In this document: positions 14,629-28,726 of the stretch, in pieces | Numbering within the stretch: position 1 is the first letter of the stretch | Layout: every line of letters begins with the position of its first letter | NCBI RefSeq assembly: GCF_023028225.1 | Contig: NZ_CP095482.1 | Span: 2,170,001-2,234,000 of the forward strand | DNA: 64,000 bases | DNA from: Halorientalis litorea | Lineage (GTDB): Archaea > Halobacteriota > Halobacteria > Halobacteriales > Haloarculaceae | Direction of reading: 5' to 3' | Position numbers and translations under genes: made by a program | Notes under the pieces: generated by a model | Told to the model about the DNA's origin: nothing | Database searches by the model: none | What the model saw: only the letters and a program-made list of their open reading frames with translations

Positions 14629-14646
14629 GTCGTTTTTCCCCACGTT

Positions 14647-14667
14647 CACGAGAGCGGAGCTCTCGTG
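14647..14667. repeat. Hairpin A2, 9-bp stem, GGA loop
   Basis: CACGAGAGC pairs perfectly with GCTCTCGTG around the loop GGA. Confidence 0.8.
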
Positions 14668-14674
14668 CAGTCGT

Positions 14675-14695
14675 CCGAAAGGCGAGGCCTTTCGG
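14675..14695. repeat. Hairpin A3, 9-bp stem, GAG loop
   Basis: CCGAAAGGC pairs perfectly with GCCTTTCGG around the loop GAG. Confidence 0.8.
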
Positions 14696-14700
14696 GATGA

Positions 14701-14726
14701 CGAGAGACGCCGTCCGGCGTCTCTCG
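14701..14726. repeat. Hairpin A4, 11-bp stem, GTCC loop
   Basis: CGAGAGACGCC pairs perfectly with GGCGTCTCTCG around a four-base GTCC loop. Confidence 0.8.
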
Positions 14727-14735
14727 AACCACCCA

Positions 14736-14756
14736 CCAGAAATCTCCGATTTCTGG
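14736..14756. repeat. Hairpin A5, 9-bp stem, TCC loop
   Basis: CCAGAAATC pairs perfectly with GATTTCTGG around a TCC loop; it is more AT-rich than its neighbours. Confidence 0.8.
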
Positions 14757-14785
14757 GGACGTTTTTGCAGTCGGGGGTGCCCGCA

Positions 14786-14800
14786 GGCGGCGAAGCCGCC
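14786..14800. repeat. Hairpin A6, 6-bp core stem, GAA loop
   Basis: GGCGGC pairs with GCCGCC around GAA. Outer bases (GGGTG at 14775-14779 and CACCC after the hairpin) can extend it as an imperfect stem. It sits about 27 bp beyond the 3' end of the DHH gene. Confidence 0.65.
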
Positions 14801-14827
14801 GAGGACACACCCGGCTGTAAAAAGTGG

Positions 14828-16018
14828 CTAGATATCGCCAGACATCGCCGAAAAGAGACGGTCGGTGAGTTCCGGCATCGTGACGCCCGTGGATGGGCCG
14901 AGCCCTTCCATGTGGTCGAGTGAAATCTGGCCCCCACCCATGCGGGCGTGGCCGCCGGCGTCGGCCATGGGGATGTCGTCGACGGCGGCCTGGAGGGTCT
15001 TGCCCATGTGGACCCGGTCGTCGCGGGAGCGGCCCGAGAGGTGGACCGTGCCGTCTTTCTCCCCGGCGACGACGACGGCGGTGACGCCCTCCAACCGGAG
15101 GAGTTCGTCGGCGGCCTGTGGGATGGCGTCGGCGTTGTTCACCTCGCCGACGTTGCTGAACGCGAAGGCGTTGCGGACTTCCCGGTCCACGATTGCCCGA
15201 GCCTTCACGTCCAGTACCTCCGCGTCGACTTCCGGGTTGGCGATTCTGTCGAGCGTGTCCTCGTCGACTCCGTCGTAGAGGTAGGCCGCGGCGTCGAACT
15301 CCGCCGCCGAACAGCCAGCGGTCAGGTTGTTGGTGTCCGACTGGATGCCGTAGACGAGTGCGGTCGCTACGTCCGAGGGGAGGGTCGTCTCGTCGTCGGC
15401 GTCGGAGCCGGCCGGTTCCCAGCCGAGGGCGTCGTAGTACTCCGCGAAGATGGTGGCACACGCGCCAGTATCGGTACGAACGTCGGTGAACACGTCGCCG
15501 GACCCGTTGCCGGGGTGGTGGTCGACGACGGCGAACGGCTCCACCGTCTCGGCTCCGGGGAACCCGCGCGGCGTGTTGTGGTCGACGGCGACGACTTCCT
15601 CGGCCGCGATGTCGTTCGCGTCGGTGATGCGGTCGAAGTTCAGGTCGAGCACAGTCTCGAACGCGCGGTTCTCCTGATGGCGTATCTGTCCGGCGTACTG
15701 CATCGTCGCCTCCGTGTCGACGGCGGTGGCGAGCGTCTGGACGGCGAGGGCACACGCCATCGCGTCGGGGTCGGGGTTAGGGTGCATCAGGACCGCGACT
15801 TCGTCGCGAGCGGCCAGTGCCCGATGGAACCGCTCGCCCGCCGACCGCCGGAGCCAGCGGACGAGCAGTCCGATGACGACTACCACGACCAGCACCACGG
15901 CGGCGACCGACACCGCGACCAGAGGGTTCTCGAGGGCGAATGCCGCAGTTGCGTCGACCGCGGTTTCCACACCAACCGTACCCACGGGACCGACGCCACT
16001 TGCGGCTACAAGTGGCAT
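14828..16018 (-). CDS. Membrane-anchored DHH family phosphoesterase
   Basis: A 396-residue protein with one N-terminal membrane helix (about residues 32-54, NPLVAVSVAAVVLVVVVVIG) followed by a cytoplasmic DHH-DHHA1 module. DHH motifs: VLMHPNPDPDAMA (His79, Asp83, Asp85), VVAVDHN, and VVDHHPGN (the signature DHH). The C-terminal DHHA1 part has ADAGGHARMGGGQIS. Relatives include GdpP-type cyclic di-AMP phosphodiesterases and NrnA-like oligoribonucleases. The membrane anchor resembles GdpP, but no PAS or GGDEF domain is present. Haloarchaea make c-di-AMP, so a role in its turnover is a fair guess. The hairpin cluster follows its stop. Confidence 0.85.
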   Translation of the reverse strand: MPLVAASGVGPVGTVGVETAVDATAAFALENPLVAVSVAAVVLVVVVVIGLLVRWLRRSAGERFHRALAARDEVAVLMHPNPDPDAMACALAVQTLATAVDTEATMQYAGQIRHQENRAFETVLDLNFDRITDANDIAAEEVVAVDHNTPRGFPGAETVEPFAVVDHHPGNGSGDVFTDVRTDTGACATIFAEYYDALGWEPAGSDADDETTLPSDVATALVYGIQSDTNNLTAGCSAAEFDAAAYLYDGVDEDTLDRIANPEVDAEVLDVKARAIVDREVRNAFAFSNVGEVNNADAIPQAADELLRLEGVTAVVVAGEKDGTVHLSGRSRDDRVHMGKTLQAAVDDIPMADAGGHARMGGGQISLDHMEGLGPSTGVTMPELTDRLFSAMSGDI

Positions 16019-27122: not shown

Positions 27123-28202
27123 ATGAAGGTCGCCCTGATTGGCGTGGGTCAAGCAGGCGGAAAGATAGCCCAGGCCCTCGCAGAGTTCGATTACAACCGC
27201 GAATTCGGTGCCGTGATGGGCGCGTTCGCGGTCAACACCGCGCGCGCCGACCTCCAAAACCTCGACATCGACACGATGCTCATCGGTCAGGACCGAGTGA
27301 AAGGGCACGGTGTCGGTGGCGACAACGAACTCGGTGCCGAAATCATGCAGCAAGAGGCAACCGAGGTGATGGACGAACTCGACGGTCGAATCACCAGCAA
27401 GGCCGAGGCTATCATCGTCGTCGCCGGCCTCGGCGGTGGCACCGGCTCCGGTGGCGCGCCGATGCTCACCCGGAAACTCCAGCGAATCCACGACATCCCC
27501 ATCTACGGGCTCGGTGTCCTCCCCGGGCGCGACGAGGGAGCGATCTACCAAGCAAACGCCGGTCGCTCGCTCAAAACCTTCACCCGCGAAGCCGATTCCC
27601 TCCTCCTCATCGACAACGACGCGTGGCACAGTTCCGGTGAATCCGTCGAAGAAGGGTTCGACACCATCAACAACCGCATCGCCGAGCGCGTCGGCCTGTT
27701 GCTGGCCGCCGGTGAGGCCGTCGAAGGCGTCGGCGAGAGCGTCGTCGACTCCTCGGAAATTATCAACACGCTCAAAACCGGCGGCATCGCCTCGCTCGGC
27801 TACGCCTCCGCGAAGGCCGACGAGGACGCCGGCGAGAACATCAACGTCATCACCTCGACGGCCCGGAAAGCCCTCCTGACCGGGACGTCGCTCCCCAACG
27901 CCGTGCAGGCGGACACCGCCCTCCTCGTCGCCGCCGGCCACCCCGACCGAATCGCCCGCAAGGGCGTCGAACGCGCCCGCAAGTGGCTCGAAGAGGAGAC
28001 CGGCAGCCTCGAAGTCCGGGGCGGTGACTTCCCGCTCAACAGCGAGAACATCGCCACCCTCGTCTTGCTCGGCGGCCTGCAAGGGTCCCAGCGCGTCCAA
28101 GAGTTCATGGACCGCGCCAGCGAGGCCGCAAAGCGGCGCGAGCAAGAACCCGAAGACACCGTGGACGACTTCGAGAACGAGGAACTGGACAACCTCTTTT
28201 AG
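27123..28202 (+). CDS. cetZ: CetZ family tubulin-like GTPase
   Basis: A 359-residue cytoskeletal GTPase of the archaeal CetZ family, involved in cell shape and motility in Haloferax. Residues 1-20 (MKVALIGVGQAGGKIAQALA) form the first nucleotide loop, residues 104-110 are the tubulin signature GGGTGSG, and the T7-like loop region follows (NNRIAERVGLLLAAGE). The C-terminal half matches CetZ (TARKALLTGTSLPNAVQADTALLVAAG), and the tail is acidic (ENEELDNLF). The hairpin cluster B starts immediately after the stop. It is divergent from the pilus-like operon. Which CetZ group it belongs to cannot be decided here. Confidence 0.92.
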   Translation: MKVALIGVGQAGGKIAQALAEFDYNREFGAVMGAFAVNTARADLQNLDIDTMLIGQDRVKGHGVGGDNELGAEIMQQEATEVMDELDGRITSKAEAIIVVAGLGGGTGSGGAPMLTRKLQRIHDIPIYGLGVLPGRDEGAIYQANAGRSLKTFTREADSLLLIDNDAWHSSGESVEEGFDTINNRIAERVGLLLAAGEAVEGVGESVVDSSEIINTLKTGGIASLGYASAKADEDAGENINVITSTARKALLTGTSLPNAVQADTALLVAAGHPDRIARKGVERARKWLEEETGSLEVRGGDFPLNSENIATLVLLGGLQGSQRVQEFMDRASEAAKRREQEPEDTVDDFENEELDNLF

Positions 28203-28219
28203 AACCCACTTTTTACGTC

Positions 28220-28244
28220 GGGGGGTCGCCGCCGGCGACCCCCC
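28220..28244. repeat. Hairpin B1, 11-bp stem, GCC loop
   Basis: GGGGGGTCGCC pairs perfectly with GGCGACCCCCC around GCC. It is preceded by CCACTTTTTACGTC 9 bases after the cetZ stop and followed by CCCAAAAACGTGGGG. The T-run just before the stem and the A-run after it form an outer imperfect inverted repeat. It may act as a transcription terminator or mRNA end stabiliser. Confidence 0.8.
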
Positions 28245-28269
28245 ATCCCAAAAACGTGGGGAAAAACCG

Positions 28270-28298
28270 CCGAACTCGCGGCGATGCCGCGAGTTCGG
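28270..28298. repeat. Hairpin B2, 13-bp stem, GAT loop
   Basis: CCGAACTCGCGGC pairs perfectly with GCCGCGAGTTCGG around the loop GAT. It is the longest uninterrupted stem in the window. Confidence 0.82.
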
Positions 28299-28302
28299 TG
28301 AA

Positions 28303-28323
28303 CCGCGCGCCAGCGGCGCGCGG
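28303..28323. repeat. Hairpin B3, 9-bp stem, AGC loop
   Basis: CCGCGCGCC pairs perfectly with GGCGCGCGG around AGC. It is four bases after hairpin B2. Confidence 0.8.
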
Positions 28324-28435
28324 ATACTCGTAACCGCCCCGTACCGCACCACTACCGCCACCGCCCCACACCGCTACCCCTTGCCCCGCAATTCCCTTCG
28401 AAAGGACTAATCAGCGGCCCGGAGAACGCTCGGGT

Positions 28436-28726
28436 ATGGCTGACGACGACTCCGAGACAGAAGAACCCGCCGTCGAACTCGGCGACGGTGCGGCCGTCGA
28501 GGGCGCGCCGCTGGCGCGCGTCTCGGCGCGCCTGATGTGGGGCATCGAGAAGAGTGAGGTCCGCCGCCGCGAGGGCGAGACGACCATCCGGACCCCCGAC
28601 GGGCCGCAGGAACTCGGGGACGTACTCGACGACGTGGACCTGCCGTACTTCGAGAAACGCCAAGAGTTCGAGGACGCCGTCCGCGATGTCGTCGGAACCG
28701 GCCCGGTTCCGACCGCAGACGAGTAG
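28436..28726 (+). CDS. Conserved haloarchaeal protein (DUF5789-like)
   Basis: A 96-residue soluble, acidic protein. The conserved part is from about residue 30: ARLMWGIEKSEVRRREGETTIRTPDGPQELGDVLDDVDLPYFEKRQEFEDAVRDVVG, which I recall as DUF5789. The function is unknown. It has no catalytic motif and is probably small alpha/beta. It lies between the cetZ hairpin region and the DUF302 gene, with a further GC-rich inverted stretch after its stop (about 28728-28750). Confidence 0.72.
   Translation: MADDDSETEEPAVELGDGAAVEGAPLARVSARLMWGIEKSEVRRREGETTIRTPDGPQELGDVLDDVDLPYFEKRQEFEDAVRDVVGTGPVPTADE

Follow-up and report, generated by a model that had tools for sequence, protein, structure and literature searches.

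The window analysed here is the whole stretch of 64,000 nucleotides (nt) of Halorientalis litorea, with a G+C content of 68%; the identity of its CetZ protein also places it in the genus Halorientalis. Translation places the cetZ coding sequence at 27123-28202 of the forward strand (TAG stop at 28200-28202), and the 3' end of this gene, which has close homologues in 8 of 8 genomes of the genus, bears a cluster of hairpins. This cluster is probably a copy of a palindromic cassette dispersed in haloarchaeal genomes (hereafter the module) that would act as a bidirectional transcription terminator or insulator at gene 3' ends. The way haloarchaeal genes end, and what matters there besides the T-tract, is poorly known.

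Two hairpin clusters in the window

On the forward strand the cetZ cluster begins 2 nt past the stop codon with a left outer arm, CCCAC, followed by the T-tract TTTTT (28205-28214). Hairpin 1 comes next (28220-28244, stem of 11 bp, loop GCC), then an A-tract, AAAAA, and a right outer arm, (C)GTGGG (28250-28260), i.e., a T-tract for transcription arriving from the opposite side. A second A-tract (28262-28266) lies within a 15-mer, AACGTGGGGAAAAAC, and precedes hairpin 2 (28270-28298, stem of 13 bp, loop GAT) and hairpin 3 (28303-28323, stem of 9 bp, loop AGC). The latter is flanked by two linkers of the family, GTGAACC and GGATACTCG (often GGATGCT). A first-pass annotation of this DNA had listed the three hairpins; all three stems are exact, and the list lacked an outer stem. 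In the DNA fold, which also contains the three hairpins, CCCAC-TTTTT base-pairs with AAAAA-(C)-GTGGG, thus hairpin 1 is the tip of one long interrupted palindrome.

It could be supposed that such hairpins arise by chance in a GC-rich genome, and the base composition of the window goes in that direction. Nevertheless, the window contains seven triplet-loop stems of at least 9 bp, compared with a mean of about 1.1 in 10 first-order shuffles; six of the seven lie in two clusters and the other is inside a gene (28691-28713). The 128 nt of the cetZ cluster fold into three hairpins with a z-score of −8.9 as DNA and −9.3 as RNA, and none of 200 shuffles folds as well. These shuffle controls, the shared linkers, the covariance model and the copies found in many genera (see below) refute chance, to which we attach practically no probability. 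A near-perfect GC palindrome, GGCGCGCCGCTGGCGCGCG, lies at 28504-28524 within the small gene after cetZ and resembles the stem of hairpin 3.

The second cluster (cluster 1) is located behind a DHH-family gene of the reverse strand (14828-15970). Its module (14748-14828, reverse strand) has the same boundary and T-tract as that of cetZ and matches the pattern TTTTTN{25,55}AAAAA; extra hairpins and the shared AACGTGGGGAAAAAC occupy 14632-14756 of the same strand. It had been proposed that both clusters share flanks, and this is borne out by the 15-mer and by CCACTTTTTAC. The latter occurs twice in the window (28206, forward; 14817-14827, reverse; mean of 0.00 in 100 shuffles), each time at a gene 3' end: behind cetZ, and behind the DHH gene in the reading direction of that gene. 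The module of cluster 1 has no match to the covariance model at an expectation value (E) of 0.02. A block of about 100 nt of this cluster is repeated at two further places of the genome (100% and 95% identity), and a 35-nt piece of that block, or part of the piece, is present in 8 of 8 genomes of the genus searched.

A repeat family at gene 3' ends

The plan of the family can be abridged as gene end – CCACC-TTTTT – hairpin – AAAAA-CGTGG – AAAAA – more hairpins. On the left side, the gene end is followed by NNACC, TTTTT, a short stretch to CGGG and a perfect triloop hairpin. On the right side come ACC.CTC, AAAAA, a CGTGG-like arm, AAAAA and a second hairpin, often with GTGAACC-hairpin-GGATGCT behind it. 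On each strand of the own genome, the pattern TTTTTN{25,55}AAAAA has 46 matches and the reversed pattern 6; some rows overlap and, by eye, about one quarter of the places are AT-rich chance matches. Across 99 genomes of the order, a stricter T-hairpin-A motif is present in 15 and its reverse in none. The exact word CCACTTTTT was also tried: with 8 occurrences in the own genome against 21 for the reversed word it is not enriched, thus the short flank by itself is not the signal.

A covariance model (R1) was built from 14 copies of the own genome. RNAalifold gave no structure for the first alignment (A1), in which MAFFT had shifted the T-tracts; it was replaced by a smaller alignment (A2) whose structure was set manually. 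In the own genome, R1 yields 54 rows, i.e., at least about 40 distinct places (150 of 4811 candidates scored); at E 0.01, its matches extend to 46 of the 59 genomes sampled from the order, spread over 24 of the 30 genera. The first-pass annotation had suggested such a scan and had named two outcomes that would speak against a repeated module, namely the lack of any other copy and the loss of the T-run and A-run flanks; further copies were found and they keep these flanks. Rfam has no match in the window at the gathering score, and a permissive scan of 28100-28450 gave only families far below threshold. The exact pattern CCACCTTTTTN{22,52}AAAAACGTGGGCGAAAAA is absent from the viral contigs searched, and a plasmid search returned 4 records, the best of which covers 67% of the query. 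Among the matches listed for the own genome, all are on contig C1 (2.80 of 3.21 Mb) and none on the smaller contigs, while H. marina has at least one module on a plasmid (contig C2, position 223033). A subfamily with the arms CTAAATTT and AAATTTAG in place of CCACC-TTTTT occurs at five loci of the own genome (L173, L179, L180, L181 and L186), and gene calls place a TAA stop within the arm at four of them (not at L181).

For position, 95 modules were mapped, i.e., 123 rows minus 28 opposite-strand duplicates and one weak row (L191 1972-2050, E 0.013), with cluster 1 (14748-14828) then included manually. Two further modules (L063 and L064:5895) are beyond the reach of the model and outside the 95. 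The loci are mostly best-scoring matches and not a random draw (34 own stretches and the window, 46 from other genomes). Gene calls are those of an uncurated codon-score caller; L145 looks like a case of an unseen abutting gene and L062 may be another.

Of these modules, 51 begin −4 to +8 nt from the end of a sense gene or tRNA (mode 0-2), six of these ends being those of tRNAs. The earlier proposal of a repeated module inserted or retained directly 3' of genes, together with its call for mapping against stop codons, is thus supported. The settings are convergent for 37, tandem for 53 and divergent for 2 of 92 modules (three with a gene call across them were omitted), against 9, 51 and 9 of the 69 gene pairs of the window. 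Of the 20 own genes that a module abuts, 16 have TTTTT at most 12 nt from the stop, compared with 5 of the 244 others. In H. marina (G002; 45 of 49 rows mapped), 21 modules abut a gene end without a flanking repeat, 12 have such a repeat and 12 have neither. Among the own modules with an assigned gene, 13 of 34 have a module at the same gene in H. marina, cetZ included.

Duplicated gene tails, gain and loss

Direct repeats flank 30 of the 95 modules, against 20 of 1171 control positions (1.7%) of the same loci; the 30 include both rows of L133, which are repeats of a module array, and two rows of L135, an array behind a tRNA. A repeat flanks 2 of the 51 abutting modules and 28 of the 44 others. 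Most repeats are copies of the last 20-105 bp of a gene that is usually antisense to the module. In most cases one tail copy lies 0-12 nt before the CCACC end, while the other end of the module varies; at L148 the tail copy ends 60 nt away. Tandem arrays of tail and module, with two modules each, were seen at L069 (3936-4193), L071 (3887-4209), L136 and L360; the array of L134 has three modules, the third of a different sequence, and at L360 the two modules differ while the tails are nearly identical.

At nuoI (28 loci in 27 genomes, by reading), a module with a tail copy is present at 10 loci, one of which has two modules; the arrangement is eroded or partial at 3 loci and absent from 15. In two genomes of different genera (G005 and G058) the non-native junction GGTGGGGTCGCGAGGAC is shared, and each tail copy tracks the gene of its host. 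Likewise, the gene of L057 and L360 has the junction GGTGGATGTGGGAC in common, with tails nearly identical within species and different between species. Shared junctions together with host-tracking tail copies indicate homogenisation of the tail copies, for which exchange within arrays of the form tail-(module-tail)n is the probable route. Their first origin is compatible with staggered-break insertion, with template switching and with homology-aided joining.

The 3' end of ileS, recognised by reading translations, is occupied by an antisense module at L067 (G000), L359 (G002), L155 (G013), L148 (G010) and L313 (Haloferax plasmid); tail repeats are seen in four of these five genomes. Like nuoI, ileS looks like a module hotspot. 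At the Haloferax plasmid locus, the DNA right of the module resembles an ileS 3' end (by reading), and the sole repeat is a 20-mer that is not a gene tail. Two other ideas were considered: (i) an antisense small RNA made from the tail copy, where by eye a T-run lies behind many copied stops and no clear promoter is seen; (ii) remnants of integration (att) sites, which leave the shared module unexplained.

The module after cetZ is present in 2 of 7 congeners, a comparison for which the first-pass annotation had asked, and after 3 of 80 CetZ-family loci of named genomes. Judged roughly from the CetZ C-termini, a single gain or loss within the genus would account for this pattern. At this locus H. 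salina has an identical first stem with a different loop; H. marina and Haloarculaceae archaeon H-GB1-1 have other stems on the same plan. Signs of spread are thus (i) the tail repeats, (ii) gain or loss at cetZ and nuoI and (iii) the block of about 100 nt at three places of the own genome. Spread would have proceeded by copying, i.e., by an insertion that duplicates the neighbouring gene tail, followed by homogenisation of both tail copies.

The same observations could fit a selfish mobile palindromic element, comparable to a miniature inverted-repeat transposable element (MITE) or to repetitive extragenic palindromic (REP) sequences, for which the 3'-end site would reflect tolerated insertions only and termination would be a by-product. 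The excess of flanking repeats (mostly gene tails, some module-array repeats being counted), the alternation tail-module-tail-module-tail and the patchy occupancy at cetZ and nuoI all go with such an element. However, 51 of 95 copies lie within 8 nt of a sense gene end with a repeat in only two of them, a boundary sharper than insertion tolerance alone would produce. Target duplications of insertion sequences are also usually shorter and less variable than the present repeats of about 20-105 bp. This explanation is considered rather unlikely.

A more specific proposal, put forward as a speculation of rather low probability, is that of a transposase-free palindromic terminator cassette copied as folded DNA onto gene 3' ends. 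Its arms would absorb the stop codon (the far arm mirroring TAG, TGA or TAA), entry in the other orientation would duplicate 20-105 bp of gene tail, and exchange would keep the tail copies identical. Arms that can include the stop codon are seen: TGAACC/CGTTCA, GTACC after TA with GCTAC, and CTAAA/TTTAG. If this were true, haloarchaeal gene ends would be rebuilt by a transposase-free element doubling as a bidirectional terminator.

Stem pairing and the possible role of the module

Covariation was assessed on an alignment (A3) of 81 distinct copies, which is biased towards the model structure, having been fitted to it; the 14 founder copies match by construction and the nuoI loci were put in on purpose. 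In A3, 92.0% of the cells are paired (79.2 when shuffled), and 142 cells are changed on both sides, against 34.6 when shuffled (standard deviation 4.0), such changes being seen in 13 of 19 pairs. The covariation score is 0.249, compared with 0.044 for shuffled alignments and 0.011-0.047 for slid structures. The stem cells comprise 1337 Watson-Crick pairs, 3 G·T and 9 A·C. In the tRNA acceptor stems of the same loci, G·T makes up 7 of 168 pairs (4%), in a control that favours paired cells since at least 5 Watson-Crick acceptor pairs were required after the best 3' offset had been chosen. Strong covariation without the G·U wobble of an RNA suggests pairing that is maintained at the level of DNA or in both strands, or else perfected by copying. 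The one-strand wobble expected of a functional RNA structure is not seen in the module stems.

These values bear on the idea of a 3'-untranslated-region RNA element, either a stabiliser of mRNA or a stop-proximal hairpin that slows ribosomes in the manner of the E. coli REPs located at most 15 nt from the stop. The RNA fold of the cetZ cluster is very stable, the base of the stem lies 0-4 nt past most abutting gene ends and, in the parts of PMC12306157 available, stop-proximal REPs stall ribosomes in E. coli. Against it stand the near-absence of G·U in the 81 copies, compared with the tRNA stems, the presence of modules also behind tRNA genes and the T-tract ahead of the hairpin, from which a terminated RNA would end without it. 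An RNA element is thus improbable.

Watson-Crick-only covariation and palindromy on both strands would also suit a DNA palindrome for chromosome organisation, i.e., a site for a nucleoid protein or a topoisomerase that stands at gene ends by happenstance. This leaves the constant T- and A-tracts, the orientation and the boundary at the stop codon unexplained, and no binding protein is known; it is judged a little less probable still than the RNA element.

The T-run near the stop, the T-run of the opposite strand and the convergent and 3' bias make bidirectional termination the likeliest role. By analogy with T-tract termination in Haloferax volcanii, RNA polymerase coming from cetZ would reach TTTTT 7 nt past the stop and be released there, and a polymerase from the opposite side would reach GTTTTTCCCCACGTTTTT ahead of the same palindrome. 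The palindrome, being behind both T-tracts, would lie outside the terminated RNA, hence its role would be at the level of DNA or in read-through RNA. It would most likely work as DNA, either extruded as a hairpin or bound by a protein, and would stall or block a run-through polymerase; alternatively, it would fold only in read-through RNA. In the part of PMC7237163 available, the T5C motif terminated 95% of transcripts in vivo in Haloferax volcanii and a hairpin motif 59%.

Several points weigh against a bidirectional terminator. (i) T-tracts alone terminate in archaea, so termination leaves the role of the hairpin unexplained. (ii) The cetZ copy is missing in 5 of 7 congeners and is thus dispensable there. 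(iii) In the gene calls used, 44 of the 95 modules have no abutting sense gene end (28 with and 16 without a repeat). (iv) The left and right outer arms differ constantly (pair 4, pair 5 or both are mismatched in 78 of 81 copies), which is unexpected for a purely symmetric terminator. At these two outer pairs, between the outer arm and the T:A stem, the mismatch is mostly C·C; it may keep the palindrome imperfect or mark its direction.

Four features go beyond the first-pass annotation: the outer stem, stems almost devoid of G·U, a 5' boundary that is oriented and falls at the stop codon, and the copied gene tails. Most sampled genera of the order carry this conserved and recognisable element, with dozens of gene ends per genome occupied, and it allows the contribution of a palindrome placed behind a T-tract to archaeal termination to be tested directly. 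The duplicated tails that track their host are a natural system for studying short-repeat gene conversion in haloarchaeal cells, which are polyploid. For annotators, duplicated gene tails beside modules call for caution.

Comparison with known systems

Bacterial bidirectional intrinsic terminators consist of a hairpin with A- and T-tracts, act on both strands and often stand between convergent genes. The module shares with them the hairpin, both tracts, the two-strand layout and the frequent convergent setting. On the contrary, the order of its parts is opposite, i.e., T-tract, hairpin, A-tract, the bacterial order A-hairpin-T being rare here (6 against 46 matches), and its covariation points to a function as DNA or on two strands.

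Like the archaeal T-tract terminator T5C of Haloferax volcanii, as presented in the available part of PMC7237163, the module has a T-run at the gene 3' end, but its T-tract, located about 5-13 nt from the stop, forms one arm of a long palindrome and is matched by an A-tract on the opposite side. That part of the source makes no mention of a palindrome-borne T-tract element of this kind.

REP sequences with their mosaics (bacterial interspersed mosaic elements, BIME) and SPRITE are likewise dispersed intergenic palindromes, and REPs can adjoin stop codons (PMC12306157 and PMC10969869, in the parts available). Compared with their descriptions, the module differs by a free stem sequence with conserved pairing and linkers, and by the gene-tail duplications. 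The Haloquadratum element SMR-A is also of about 110 bp, with inverted ends and without transposase, and also haloarchaeal. According to the portion of PMC3119063 available, however, SMR-A targets mobile elements without target duplications; the modules occupy gene ends and show tail duplications, and are set apart by this description.

MITEs too are short and non-coding, with inverted-repeat ends and flanking duplications. In the module, the outer arms form an inverted repeat and repeats of variable length flank 30 of 95 copies; its duplications (about 20-105 bp) have no fixed length, and no parent transposon is known, none having been searched for. Searches of open-licence PMC papers found no description of such an element. 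As a kind, a dispersed, terminator-like palindrome of 3' ends is known from bacteria; what is apparently new, at least to us, is how its parts are ordered, that its covariation lacks wobble and that its tail copies track the host.
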